This document shows positions 44,897 to 48,972 of a stretch of 64,000 bases of DNA, piece after piece. The stretch is from Opitutia bacterium ISCC 52 (GTDB taxonomy: Bacteria; Verrucomicrobiota; Verrucomicrobiia; Opitutales; UBA2995): contig CP076040.1 of the NCBI GenBank assembly GCA_014529675.2, positions 2,995,894 through 3,059,893 on the forward strand, given 5' to 3'. The position numbers were made by a program, and so were the translations under genes. How positions within the stretch are numbered: position 1 is the stretch's first letter; each line of letters opens with the position of its first letter. The notes beneath the pieces are model-generated. The model did no database searches. It was given only the letters and a program-made list of their open reading frames with translations, and was not told where the DNA came from.

Positions 44897-45083
44897 CTAA
44901 TATTGATTCATGATCATAATACTCTCAGCACTTTACCGCGGAGAATGTTTTTGCAAAATATGGAAGAAAGTTTCAAAAAAAACTTGTCTTTATTGGGGGA
45001 CGAACAAATTGAAAGATACTTAATAATACAAAGGTAAAAATCCTCCACCTCATATACAACCAGATTCCACTCATCCAAAGCTC

Positions 45084-45830
45084 ATGGCATCCAAATCCAG
45101 TAAGTTAGAATGGCTCGTCGCTTCCCTCCAAGACGATATGAACTGGTGGGTGATCGAAGTTAGTAAAGACATCCCTTGGGACCTCGACGGCCTAGGCATT
45201 ATCGATCCCAAACAATGGTCCTTTTTAGTCGACCTCCTGGATCCACTCCGAGAATACGGATTAGACATTGATATAGTAGAGGATGCATTTGTTTCTTATG
45301 GAATCGATAAGGATCTCGGTGACCAAAAGATCCGCATGGTCCCAAACACTGAGTCGCTCTTTGAAACAGAAGAAATCATATTCGTACTCCCAGATGTTCT
45401 GGATGATGATGAAACCGGACCCTATGCCGATTTCCTAGACCACATCACGACTCTCCGCGTGAAGTTGCTGAACGATCTAATCGATTTTGAGCAAAGCATG
45501 TCTACCAGCGAACTGGAAGAAGACTTGCGAGACGAGTTGAACAATATGCATTTCGAAGGTAAAAACCTTCACTACTTCACCGAAATTACCTCCATCCTGG
45601 ATTACACTCCCGCTGGCTACAGCCTGGACGATGATGTCGATGACGACGACGAAAAATCATCTGACAATGATGAGGAAGTGGTAGAAGACATTCCGGACCT
45701 CGAAGAAGCCAATGAAGTCATCAAAGAAGATGATACCATGAAGTGGGAAGAGGAGGAAGAGGAAGAAGACCTTGAGGAACCCACTGCTCCGCCTGATCTA
45801 GCGGAAGAGGATATGGACCCTAAGGTTTAG
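45084..45830 (+). CDS. Acidic protein of unknown function
   Basis: I do not recognise this 248-residue protein. The first ~175 residues look folded, with W-rich helix starts (LEWLVASLQDDMNWWVIEV) and a predicted DSI-like acidic character. The last ~75 residues are nearly all D, E and S (residues ~180-205, ~225-237), probably disordered. There is no signal peptide or membrane segment. A perfect-stem hairpin (one mismatch) overlaps the stop codon. It is divergent from pyrD, with an AT-rich 187-base spacer. Confidence 0.7.
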   Translation: MASKSSKLEWLVASLQDDMNWWVIEVSKDIPWDLDGLGIIDPKQWSFLVDLLDPLREYGLDIDIVEDAFVSYGIDKDLGDQKIRMVPNTESLFETEEIIFVLPDVLDDDETGPYADFLDHITTLRVKLLNDLIDFEQSMSTSELEEDLRDELNNMHFEGKNLHYFTEITSILDYTPAGYSLDDDVDDDDEKSSDNDEEVVEDIPDLEEANEVIKEDDTMKWEEEEEEEDLEEPTAPPDLAEEDMDPKV

Positions 45831-45848
45831 GCACGCAGTGCCAAAACC
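45824..45848 (+). terminator. Hairpin at end of the acidic protein gene
   Basis: GGTTTAGGCAC, loop GCA, GTGCCAAAACC pair with one mismatch and overlap the stop codon. There is no T-tract after it, so termination strength is uncertain. It lies directly before the inverted repeat that bounds the four-helix-bundle gene. Confidence 0.45.
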
Positions 45849-45849
45849 T

Positions 45850-45895
45850 GAGTGGTCGGTGATCAGTGATCTGTAGTTAGTCGTCGGTGATGGTT
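45850..45895. repeat. Left imperfect inverted repeat of four-helix-bundle module
   Basis: Reading rightward it begins GAGTGGTCGGTGATCAGTGA. The right copy at 46370-46414, read on the minus strand, begins GAGTGGTCAGTAATCGGTGG. About 32 of 42 aligned columns match, with one gap. It also encodes the last codons of the small gene. Confidence 0.6.
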
Positions 45896-46311
45896 GCCGT
45901 GTATTCTATTGAATCCTCCTTTATTCGGTAGCCCGGGGATGCGAATGTATCGGCCCTTCGAATCATAGCACCTAGCATCCGGCCAATTTCTTCACATTTT
46001 TTAGTCAGATCTTCGGATTCATTTCGGGAAAGGTAATTGCAATCAAGGGCTTCATTGAGCCAATGTTGAGTTTCAAGTTGCTCGCCATCAGCATCCGTGA
46101 GTTTGCTAATGAAGTGCTTTGGATAAAGACGCTTCGCCCACGCTTCCGCAATTTGTGCACCGACAGATCTCGAAGACCGACGGATTTGATCTATAAGAGC
46201 GAATTTCTCCTCATAAGGAAAATTCTTTGAAAGCCGAAAGACTTCTATTGAGACCTCCCGTTGCTTTTTATAAACCTCTAAATCTCGAAAGTGCTCCACA
46301 TAACTGCTCAT
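45877..46311 (-). CDS. Four-helix-bundle protein (23S rRNA intervening-sequence S23 type)
   Basis: This 144-residue protein has the S23/TIGR02436 pattern: FRDLEVYKKQREVSIEVF at the start, LSKNFPYEEKFALIDQIRRS (~28-47), SRSVGAQIAEAWAKR (~47-61) and a helical C-terminus with EIGRMLGAMIRRA (~108). These proteins fold as a helical bundle, and similar ORFs sit inside rRNA intervening sequences; their function is unknown and the fold is like the Avd accessory protein of diversity-generating elements. Here it is free-standing and bounded by inverted repeats, which also contribute its last codons. Confidence 0.85.
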   Translation of the reverse strand: MSSYVEHFRDLEVYKKQREVSIEVFRLSKNFPYEEKFALIDQIRRSSRSVGAQIAEAWAKRLYPKHFISKLTDADGEQLETQHWLNEALDCNYLSRNESEDLTKKCEEIGRMLGAMIRRADTFASPGYRIKEDSIEYTATITDD

Positions 46312-46369
46312 GGTAACTTATTACTAGCAGCCAGTAACACCCTTTGTCACCAATTACTGGTCGCCAACT

Positions 46370-46414
46370 ACTAATTACCGACACTGAATACTGGCCACCG
46401 ATTACTGACCACTC
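46370..46414. repeat. Right imperfect inverted repeat of four-helix-bundle module
   Basis: This repeat directly abuts the hemB stop codon at 46415-46417. Read on the minus strand it contains repeated units such as GGTCAGTAATCGGT and GGCCAGTATTCAGT, and it is the partner of the left copy at 45850. Further such units continue to ~46330, just upstream of the start of the small gene. Confidence 0.6.
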
Positions 46415-47422
46415 TCAAAGAGCCTTCGCGATGTCCTTGGCGAAATAGGTCAGGATCATGTCAGCTCCGGCGCGTTTGATGCCGAGGAGGGACTCGTCCC
46501 GCGTCTTTTCGAGATCGAGCCAACCTAACTGGGCGGCGGCATGGATCTGTGCGTATTCTCCGGAAACCTGGTATGCTGCGATGGGAAGCTCTGTATTGTT
46601 TCGTAAATCCCGGATTATATCGAGGTAGGGTCCGGCGGGTTTGACCATCAAGATGTCTGCCCCTTCAACCACATCCAGCTGAGCTTCCATAGAAGCCTCA
46701 TTCCGATTGGCGGGGTTCAGTTGATAGGTCTTCTTGTCCAAGCCAGTGGTTCCAGCAGCTTGGGCACTGCCCACCGCTTCACGGAAAGGACCATAGTAAG
46801 CCGATGCAAACTTCGCGGAGTAAGCCATGATTCCGGTTTCGGAAAATCCTGTTTCATCCAGAGCCTCACGCATAGCCCCCACTCGACCATCCATCATATC
46901 GGAAGGAGCGACCAAGTCTACCCCTGCTTCGGCTTGCTGTTGTGCCATGCGACAAAGCACCTCAACGGTGGGATCGTTAAGAATTACCTGCCCTGATTCA
47001 TCTAGAAGTCCATCATGACCATGGGTCGTATAAGGATCGAGGGCTACATCCGTGATGACGATGAGCTCAGGCAGAGCTTCCTTCAGCTTCCGAACGGTAC
47101 GAAGCACCAAATTGTTTTCCTGTGTAGCTTCCGTGGCCTGATCATTTTTAAAAGAGGGATCCACCTGAGGAAACAGGGCCACCGCGGGTACGCCCAACTT
47201 GAGTAATTCTTCGCACTCCCTGACCAAGTCGGACAAATTGTGACGAAACACGCCTGGCATAGATTCAACCGGCTCGGGCTCTCCTACCCCTTCTTTGACA
47301 AAAAGTGGGGCGATTAGGTCGTTCACACCCAGAGTGGTCTCCTGGATCATATTGCGGATTCCAGCAGAACGGCGTAGTCGACGAGGTCTGCGTTGCAGGT
47401 TTAATTCAAATTCGGTTTCCAT
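46415..47422 (-). CDS. hemB: Delta-aminolevulinic acid dehydratase (porphobilinogen synthase)
   Basis: The 335-residue protein starts METEFELNLQRRPRRLRRS. A longer frame back to 47539 is unlikely, since HemB is ~320-340 residues. Family signs are DLIAPLFVKEG (~35), DPSFKNDQATEATQ (~90), an aspartate metal region (DLVAPSDMMDGRVGA, ~165), AYSAKFASAYYGPF (~195) and MVKPAGPYLDIIRD (~260) with active lysines. It joins two ALA molecules for heme, consistent with the c-type cytochrome elsewhere. It is divergent from cysS. Confidence 0.95.
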   Translation of the reverse strand: METEFELNLQRRPRRLRRSAGIRNMIQETTLGVNDLIAPLFVKEGVGEPEPVESMPGVFRHNLSDLVRECEELLKLGVPAVALFPQVDPSFKNDQATEATQENNLVLRTVRKLKEALPELIVITDVALDPYTTHGHDGLLDESGQVILNDPTVEVLCRMAQQQAEAGVDLVAPSDMMDGRVGAMREALDETGFSETGIMAYSAKFASAYYGPFREAVGSAQAAGTTGLDKKTYQLNPANRNEASMEAQLDVVEGADILMVKPAGPYLDIIRDLRNNTELPIAAYQVSGEYAQIHAAAQLGWLDLEKTRDESLLGIKRAGADMILTYFAKDIAKAL

Positions 47423-47526
47423 TCGATCGCTAAACAATGGGATTGATTCACAGAATGCAAATCCTGATAGTGCTCCGTTTTCTAAATCGCCGCAATTGAA
47501 AATCTGCTCAGGACTCATTCCCAAGC

Positions 47527-48972
47527 ATGGAAATATCACTTCATCTTCACGACACTATGACCCGCAGTATTCAGCCTTTAAAAGCTGAAGACGGAAAACA
47601 ATTTAGATTCTATTGTTGCGGGCCTACCGTTTATGGACCGGCACATATCGGAAACTTTCGCGCGTTTCTGGTGCAAGATGTCCTCCGGAGAGCTCTCGAG
47701 GTAGCTGGATTGAACCCCTACCACGTCCGCAATCTTACCGATGTAGACGATAAGACCATTCGGACGTCCCAAGCGGAAGGAAAATCCCTGGGCGAATTTA
47801 CCCGCTTCTGGACAGAAAAATTCCATGAAGACTCGGAGGCCCTCAATATTCTCCCTCCTCACAAAGAACCCAAGGCCACGGAACACATCCCACAACAGAT
47901 CCTGCTTGTGGAGCGACTGGCTGCAAAGGGTCTGGCCTATGCGGCCAATGATGGCTCCGTCTACTTCAAAGTTTCAGCCTACGAACCCTATGGGAAACTG
48001 AGTCGCCTCAAAGAACGGGAGATTTCCACTCAGTCCACCACCAGTTCCGGTGAACAAAACGATGCGGACGAGTATGATCGCGAATCCGTAGCGGACTTCG
48101 CTTTGTGGAAATCTCGCAAGCCGGATGATGGTGATAATTTCTGGGAAAGCCCCTGGGGTGAAGGCCGTCCTGGCTGGCACCTCGAATGCTCGGCCATGAG
48201 TCAGGAATACCTGGGTGACAGCTTCGACCTCCACGGCGGAGGCATCGACCTTTGCTTCCCGCATCACGAAAACGAGATCGCACAAAGTGAGGGTGCAACC
48301 GGCAAACCATTCGCCCGGCACTGGTTTCACAATGCTCACCTGATGGTCGAAGGACAAAAGATGAGTAAGAGCCTTGGCAACCTTTATACCTTAGAAGACT
48401 TAAAGGACAAAGGGTTCACACCTATGGAGGTGCGTTACACACTCATTTCCGGCCATTACAAGCAGCAGTTAAATTTCACCTTTGCGTCCTTAAAGGCCGG
48501 CAGAAGCGCCATGAAGAAAATGGAGAAGGCGGTCACGAAGTATCTGGAACAGGCTGGACTGACCGAAGAAGATTTCCTCGCATTCGCTCAGGCCCCCTAC
48601 CCTACAGAGTTTGGTTACTTCCAACGAGCTTGGGACGGAATCGCCAATGACCTCAATGTTTCCCAGGCTACCGGCGGCATATTTGCAGGTTTCGCCCAGT
48701 TGGAAAAAGTAAAACTCGATGCGGACTCGATTCTAAAAGAACTCAAGGCGCTAGCGAACGTGCTTTATGCCATTGGTATTCAACTTTTCCAGAAGGTTGA
48801 AGAAACTATCATTGAAATCCCGGATGAGGTACAAGTCCTGGGCCAGGAACGTTGGCAGGCCAAACAAGCCCGCGACTGGGAAAAAGCGGATGCTCTCCGC
48901 AACCAGCTTCAGGAAGCAGGATGGCAAAGCCTTGACCGGAAGGACGGCTACGATCTGACTCCCATCTATTAG
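47527..48972 (+). CDS. cysS: Cysteinyl-tRNA synthetase
   Basis: This 481-residue protein has FYCCGPTVYGPAHIGN (~29-44) with zinc Cys and the HIGN motif, WHLECSAMS (~217) with another zinc Cys, and KMSKSLGN (~278). It charges tRNA-Cys. The length and both signature motifs are standard, and ATG 47527 gives the expected N-terminus. It is followed 34 bases later by thrS on the same strand. Confidence 0.96.
   Translation: MEISLHLHDTMTRSIQPLKAEDGKQFRFYCCGPTVYGPAHIGNFRAFLVQDVLRRALEVAGLNPYHVRNLTDVDDKTIRTSQAEGKSLGEFTRFWTEKFHEDSEALNILPPHKEPKATEHIPQQILLVERLAAKGLAYAANDGSVYFKVSAYEPYGKLSRLKEREISTQSTTSSGEQNDADEYDRESVADFALWKSRKPDDGDNFWESPWGEGRPGWHLECSAMSQEYLGDSFDLHGGGIDLCFPHHENEIAQSEGATGKPFARHWFHNAHLMVEGQKMSKSLGNLYTLEDLKDKGFTPMEVRYTLISGHYKQQLNFTFASLKAGRSAMKKMEKAVTKYLEQAGLTEEDFLAFAQAPYPTEFGYFQRAWDGIANDLNVSQATGGIFAGFAQLEKVKLDADSILKELKALANVLYAIGIQLFQKVEETIIEIPDEVQVLGQERWQAKQARDWEKADALRNQLQEAGWQSLDRKDGYDLTPIY

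Follow-up and report, generated by a model that had tools for sequence, protein, structure and literature searches.

What is a small gene of the S23 family doing between two inverted repeats, in the gap between two protein-coding genes of Opitutia bacterium ISCC 52 (Verrucomicrobiota, order Opitutales)? The gene occupies most of a 565-base unit at positions 45850-46414 of the window, by which we mean the whole 64,000-nucleotide stretch analyzed (contig CP076040.1, positions 2,995,894 to 3,059,893). To our knowledge, S23 (PF05635) proteins are widespread and have solved structures but no known function, and the dispersed heptamer repeats of several bacteria have no known partner. A first-pass annotation made from the sequence alone had likened the unit to rRNA intervening sequences, in which the same kind of open reading frame (ORF) sits inside a stem, and had suggested a mobile or self-folding RNA unit. 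We find that the ends of the unit, rather than being a simple stem, consist of degenerate 7-nucleotide (nt) repeats in arrays that face each other. The explanation that we favor, and consider probable as a whole, is that the S23 protein is the cognate binder of these arrays, that gene and arrays form one element, and that facing arrays lacking a gene are its dependents.

Facing arrays at S23 genes

The unit, its place and the count of matching columns given in the first-pass annotation stand up to control: aligned in inverted orientation, the ends agree in 32 of 42 columns (score 20), and in 961 control placements with this geometry at other positions of the window the score never exceeds 16. 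Both ends are built of heptads of the form RGTNNNC, which point towards the gene, and a three-heptad pattern (up to 3 mismatches) matches the window 10 times, with 8 of the matches in the two arms and 0.86 expected. The left array (45850-45893, plus strand) has five to six degenerate heptads (AGTGGTC, GGTGATC, AGTGATC, TGTAGTT, AGTCGTC, and GGTGATG) with the same consensus as in relatives. It overlaps the last codons of the S23 gene (45877-46311, minus strand, 144 codons) at 45877-45893, so that the left repeat does encode the end of the protein, as had been noticed at first pass. On the right, an outer block (46382-46414, minus strand; AGTGGTC, AGTAATC, GGTGGCC, AGTATTC, and AGT) is the inverted partner of the left array and, again as described earlier, touches the hemB stop codon (46415-46417). 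The block adjoining the gene start (46313-46381, minus strand) has about five recognizable heptads (GGTAATT, AGTAGTT, GGCGACC, AGTAATT, and GGTGAC) and is more decayed near the start codon. S23 is the only gene recognized in the unit, and no transposase was found within it.

This architecture recurs across phyla. An alignment of close relatives (44-50% identity) used as the query in a scan of GTDB contigs gave 563 confirmed loci, and the best 80, picked by protein similarity only, were kept; they come from Verrucomicrobiota, Chloroflexota, Bacteroidota, Planctomycetota, Thermodesulfobacteriota, and others. With an array called where a 35-nt window has 24 or more self-matches at a single period, 44 of the 80 loci have an array upstream, 46 downstream, and 30 on both sides, compared with 27, 30, and 3 of 533 shifted control windows, and the dominant period is 7. 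Eight loci of the order, the window included, were added to give a set of 88, from which partial or weaker homologs (L012-L033) were excluded. In this set the similarity of the upstream flank to the reverse-complemented downstream flank has a median of 21.5; the median is 11 both in 536 shifted controls and in 1740 cross-locus pairs. It lies above the 95th percentile of the shifted controls at 74 of the 88 loci and above the 99th at 64, a level passed by 12% of cross-locus pairs. The design that first drew attention to the locus, an S23 ORF between complementary ends and set between protein genes, is thus a recurrent one.

The best repeat period across the 88 loci is 7 in 75, 8 in 10, and 6 in 3. 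Units generally conform to RGTNNNC or RGANNNC; in the upstream arm they run in the same direction as the gene, and in the downstream arm they lie on the other strand. Three or more heptads in this orientation are present in both arms at 43 of the 70 loci labeled RGT or RGA, and at none of the 70 in the antisense orientation. A consensus taken from the window only, GTRATYR, was rejected because it found arrays at just a few relatives, and the consensus-free period test showed arrays of other units. Arrays are also found farther afield. Among 30 loci of other PF05635 subfamilies of the order, 3 were not scorable and 23 of the remaining 27 have an inverted score above 15, while 8 of 9 relatives on cyanobacterial plasmids (9 of 35 records were fetched) have inverted arrays with scores of 17 or more. 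Inverted arrays are therefore a feature of much of PF05635. Viral contigs yielded only three distant relatives and phages one, which indicates that the S23 unit is not a phage feature.

Array type matches protein lineage. A tree of the 88 proteins, reconstructed by a quick method from 133 columns, requires 6 changes between RGT and RGA; none of 500 free shuffles gets by with fewer than 12, and none of 500 within-phylum shuffles with fewer than 8. The unit label is absent in 4 of the 88, and three 6-nt loci and one odd locus were omitted from a test of three types (RGT, RGA, and 8-nt), which gives 12 changes, compared with at least 19 in free and at least 18 in within-phylum shuffles. Period 8 versus period 7 alone gives a weaker signal (7 changes against a mean of 9.6, reached by 6 of 500 free shuffles). 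One clade, with a Shimodaira-Hasegawa-like approximate likelihood ratio test (SH-aLRT) value of 98, crosses Thermodesulfobacteriota, Myxococcota, Planctomycetota, Ignavibacteriota, and Verrucomicrobiota and has RGA arrays in 7 of its 8 rows, the eighth being AGGANNC-like. RGT and RGA loci show no difference in base composition (p 0.54), which was therefore rejected as the cause of the split.

Several individual loci show further peculiarities. At four of them (L007, L008, L010, and L019) the S23 open frame extends upstream into the array, giving repetitive N termini such as GGRRSEVGGR or KAQRHKGTKAQRHKG. In two congeners (L009 1201-1330 and L011 1842-1900), the downstream array is read as the signal-like N terminus of a cytochrome-like gene (..CLLSSVSFLLASPRVEFLKEYCFQCHG); arrays may thus donate signal peptides. 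On the cyanobacterial plasmids L263, L265, and L266, the S23 gene is directly upstream of a tyrosine recombinase/integrase gene, and on L263 and L266 a VapC/PilT-type gene also precedes it. At L257 (2414-2920 and 3800-4192) and L258, in G055:C31 and G071:C49, clusters of several S23 genes and arrays have the look of serial insertions. An array-less PF05635 gene of the window's own genome (L002 1483-1854) is tightly spaced between other genes and is possibly a domesticated copy.

Arrays without a gene

Dispersed arrays depend on the presence of the S23 family. In the genome of the window, the heptad pattern (up to 3 mismatches) has 36 + 22 matches (reversed control, 11 and 0), and 18 fetched regions hold short arrays, mostly single, with some facing pairs. 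Within the order, PF05635-like genes are found in 52 of 132 genomes by a single-sequence search and in 62 by the family profile, and a generic array pattern matches 35 of the 132 (1438 matches; control 391). These matches fall in 33 of the 62 PF05635-positive genomes versus 2 of the 70 negative ones (nominal Fisher p 1e-11); among genomes of at least 2.5 Mb the figures are 30 of 51 versus 1 of 24 (nominal p 3e-6). In the two negative exceptions, G113 and G124, control matches outnumber pattern matches. The first-pass annotation would have given up its idea if the repeats proved common without the gene. They are indeed common without it, yet they are almost confined to genomes with a PF05635 gene, so the idea is extended rather than overturned.

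The type of the dispersed arrays also matches that of the resident gene. In genomes with RGT arrays or an RGT gene, RGT and RGA matches number 18 and 0 (G000, the genome of the window), 10 and 0 (G064), and 104 and 11 (G071), while RGA-gene genomes have 1 and 654 (G013), 0 and 156 (G028), and 4 and 30 (G055). G091, whose nearest relative is RGA, has 4 and 8, and G041, with an octad gene, has none of either. Fifty further genomes behind the 80 loci were chosen by flank label (14 of 14 RGA, 7 of 7 eight-nt, and 29 of 52 RGT), and the resident locus's own matches were subtracted from the counts. Of the 29 RGT-gene genomes, 22 are RGT-dominant, 3 RGA-dominant, and 4 undecided; of the 14 RGA-gene genomes, 10 are RGA-dominant, 2 RGT-dominant, and 2 undecided (nominal Fisher p 4e-5).

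Gene-less arrays keep the facing arrangement: among the loci examined, neighboring arrays of opposite orientation face inward in 15 cases to 1, and G013 has 8 gene-less facing pairs with loops of 12 to 476 bases. A near-perfect array of about 12 AGTGGTC units in the window's own genome (L064 247-412; C1:3860746-3860911) faces a degenerate array with no gene between them, and the sister genome has about 4 units there. Another dispersed repeat family, seen at L219 (18073-18340 and 12511-12641) and present in many copies in G099, G048, and other congeners, is apparently unrelated to the heptads.

Arrays differ between sister species. The empty-site comparison that the first-pass annotation had proposed turns up such a site: at the orthologous position the congener G064 (flanks 87-90% identical) has facing arrays and no gene, its left array consisting of six GTGTTCA units. 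A facing pair of roughly 60 bases is present at the orthologous site of G032, and facing arrays are absent from those of G048 and G089. At five other array spots compared between G000 and G064, two differ in repeat number, one is conserved, one array is present only in G000, and one is present only in G064 (with another G-rich repeat at that spot in G000). Orthologous elements in Cognataquiflexum and Maribacter likewise differ by indels, several of 7 or 14 nt. No target-site duplication is evident in the single G000/G064 alignment, in which the arrays blur the boundaries.

The S23 protein as a candidate binder

The protein encoded at 45877-46311 belongs firmly to the S23 family, matching PF05635 (E 9.4e-32, 109.8 bits, cutoff 33.8) and the four helix bundle model TIGR02436 (102.2 bits, cutoff 24). 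Its only other Pfam match is bAvd (PF22296; 45.5 bits, above the cutoff of 40). Its relatives with structures in the PDB are XCC0516 of Xanthomonas campestris (2gsc) and 2rld, and the X. campestris protein has been described as five four-helix bundles arranged in a ring (PMC4990558, PMC10053308; statements on published work are limited, here and below, to the passages available to us, unless a full-text count is given). Strong purifying selection acts on the protein: of 12 close pairs, 6 allowed the ratio of nonsynonymous to synonymous substitution rates (dN/dS) to be computed, with values of 0.04-0.08, and in the other 6 synonymous divergence was saturated. With one mismatch allowed, exactly five is the commonest number of heptads per arm (31 of 97 nonempty arms), and a correspondence of five repeats to five subunits is suggestive only.

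From these observations we infer that S23 binds the arrays, with the pentamer as the binder and binding as the cause of spread. The element would consist of two arrays that face each other, each made of short tandem repeats, usually of 7 nt (RGTNNNC or RGANNNC) and sometimes of 6 or 8 nt. It would be dispersed, with the locus as a copy that carries the gene, and the S23 protein would be the cognate binder of the arrays that flank its gene. Judged by sequence comparison, it is very likely that the protein recognizes the arrays. Gene and arrays would move together as a selfish or mobile element; mobility of the unit appears likely, and spread of gene and arrays as an element is a probable reading. 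Gene-less facing arrays would then be nonautonomous dependents, kept in trans. Tentatively, and with appreciable doubt, we suggest that a ring of subunits contacts successive repeat units on RNA or on single-stranded DNA of one polarity.

Other explanations would assign the protein a different role or none. As a host RNA or DNA regulator, S23 might use arrays at 3' ends as operators and those at its own gene for autoregulation, with no selfish spread. This is unlikely but has points in its favor: a stop codon is no more than 30 nt away from 6 of 11 array starts in G013 (and from 11% of random positions), purifying selection on the protein is strong, and others have invoked global regulators for paired heptamer/octamer sites in Geobacter metallireducens (PMC2700814) or proposed translational regulation for intergenic heptamers (PMC4679880). 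However, arrays are present at a given site in one sister species and absent from the other, and the homologs of one clade span phyla and are found on plasmids, all of which suits an element more than it does a stable regulon. We regard it as improbable that the arrays are slippage-prone heptad microsatellites in which S23 genes merely survive. Copy number does shift in heptad steps, and heptamers are over-represented in bacteria generally (PMC4692102), but the facing orientation, the match to the tree, the genome-wide match of type, and the dependence on the gene would be left unexplained.

About as improbable is an RNA element of the kind seen in rRNA intervening sequences, with ends that form a stem excised by RNase III and a protein that is incidental. 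Predicted folds do pair the ends, with z -2.27 for the 565-nt unit and z -3.51 for the congener site that lacks the gene, and the Coxiella intervening sequence is cut by RNase III (PMC4990558). Against this, the arms of the 8 gene-less G013 pairs are no more alike within a pair than between loci (medians 0.43 and 0.44), so that locus-specific stem pairing as a conserved feature is unsupported and the earlier idea of a self-folding RNA is weakened; purifying selection on the protein also speaks against an incidental role. What seems to be kept is the shared repeat unit and its orientation, as a binding site would predict, rather than a stem particular to each locus. Least probable of all is that the unit is cargo resembling a miniature inverted-repeat transposable element (MITE), moved in trans by an unrelated transposase with S23 as a passenger. 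Terminal inverted repeats and dispersed gene-less copies would suit such an origin, whereas the ends vary in sequence and period between genomes and nevertheless track the S23 protein, and the one alignment shows no evident target duplication.

A number of observations weigh against a cognate S23 binder with its arrays as one element. The 95th percentile for inverted similarity is not passed at 14 of the 88 loci, and the ends of two other PF05635 genes from the same genome as the window score 15 and 12, compared with 20 for the unit. These two genes refute the proposition that every S23 gene has arrays, and together with the 14 loci they indicate that arrays are not obligatory. On the protein tree, 36 of 85 inner forks are unresolved. 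Among the PF05635-positive genomes of the order, 29 of 62 have no array match to the generic pattern; the reversed control pattern is also associated with the PF05635 gene, possibly through matches to arrays built of other units; and the genomes are not independent. The other array type dominates in three RGT-gene and two RGA-gene genomes, and the seven octad-gene genomes are mixed, 4 to 3. Heptads counted without mismatches most often number three to four per arm, not five, which tells against the pentamer suggestion. Lastly, the Coxiella S23 ORF has been reported as decaying, with its expression considered improbable (PMC4990558).

The surroundings of the unit are ordinary, comprising dapF, a dihydroorotate dehydrogenase gene, a 248-amino-acid ORF, hemB, and two tRNA synthetase genes. 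The 248-amino-acid ORF (45084-45830, plus strand) has no Pfam match and is convergent with hemB (delta-aminolevulinic acid dehydratase; 46415-47539, minus strand; PF00490, E 1.2e-134). A short hairpin at the 3' end of this ORF (45820-45852, plus strand; 15-nt arms, 87% complementary) belongs to the flank only and is retained at the gene-less congener site. A scan of the six ORFs neighboring the window copy, to which the search was limited, gave no match to a transposase or reverse transcriptase, and an Rfam scan of 45000-47500 found nothing above threshold and no rRNA match.

Heptamer repeats and S23 genes elsewhere

Repetitive extragenic palindromic (REP) elements are dispersed, small, palindromic, gene-less units that depend on one cognate gene, which REPs flank; the products, REP-associated tyrosine transposases (RAYTs), are Y1 transposases. 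The unit resembles this system in that gene-less copies of its flanking repeats are dispersed in genomes. It differs in that the S23 protein matches only PF05635 and bAvd and no Y1 transposase, and in that the repeats are tandem arrays. The bAvd match also places S23 in the same superfamily as Avd of diversity-generating retroelements, but the protein falls below the cutoff of the Avd equivalog NF033474 (42.8 versus 80 bits), and its six scanned neighbors include no reverse transcriptase.

Closer parallels lie in published repeats. Like the unit, the intervening sequence of Coxiella burnetii holds an S23-family ORF between complementary ends, and tandem GACAGAT heptamers, which vary in number between strains, precede its start codon (PMC4990558). 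In a register that is our own reading, these repeats have the form RGANNNC. The Coxiella sequence differs in being located in rRNA helix 45 and excised by RNase III, whereas the unit sits between the 248-amino-acid ORF and hemB, and gene-less arrays of the window type are dispersed, while the Coxiella passages tie the heptamers to no genome-wide family. MacGregor (2015) described TAACTGA intergenic repeats that are patchy across phyla (Beggiatoaceae, cyanobacteria, and Bacteroidetes) and lie mostly upstream of start codons in the main genome, and suggested a repeat-binding protein as a possible mobile element, with no partner known (PMC4679880). The reverse complement, in our register AGTTATC, conforms to RGTNNNC, as do the window arrays. 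That paper names no cognate gene: the terms S23, 23S, four helix, and intervening sequence have 0 occurrences.

Rehm (2015) reported 186 GGGAATC arrays in X. campestris and 70 instances of a convergent pair, with lengths that vary between species (PMC4692102). These arrays are dispersed and paired like those of the window type, and X. campestris is also the source of XCC0516 (2gsc). Their unit is not exactly RGWNNNC, and the authors read them as G-quadruplexes. In G. metallireducens, paired sites of tandem octamers or heptamers lie on opposite strands at variable distance, as S23 arrays do, and class 3 has five tandem heptamers in 15 of 16 sites, with the consensus MTYCTGA (PMC2700814). The available passages ascribe them to unidentified global regulators or IHF/HU and make no link to S23. 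Within the open PubMed Central literature, subscription papers and preprints being outside this scope, we found no paper linking S23 genes to dispersed repeats.

On sequence grounds, the Coxiella intervening sequence, the TAACTGA and GGGAATC repeats, and the paired Geobacter heptamers look like the same thing, and the S23 protein is probably the missing partner of heptad repeats. A broader possibility, for which we see a reasonable case without holding it to be probable, is a new two-component selfish system. In it, a nonenzymatic S23 ring and facing tandem arrays of 6 to 8 nt, which would serve as both recognition sites and element ends, would spread without a transposase or reverse transcriptase of their own, array type coevolving with the protein. 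The rRNA intervening sequences and the heptamers of Beggiatoaceae, Xanthomonas, Geobacter, and cyanobacteria would then be branches of that system. The census joins a protein family without a function to heptamer repeats without a partner, and both open questions reduce to one binding test for which the substrates are ready-made. The link between S23 and the arrays could also account for the origin of rRNA intervening sequences.
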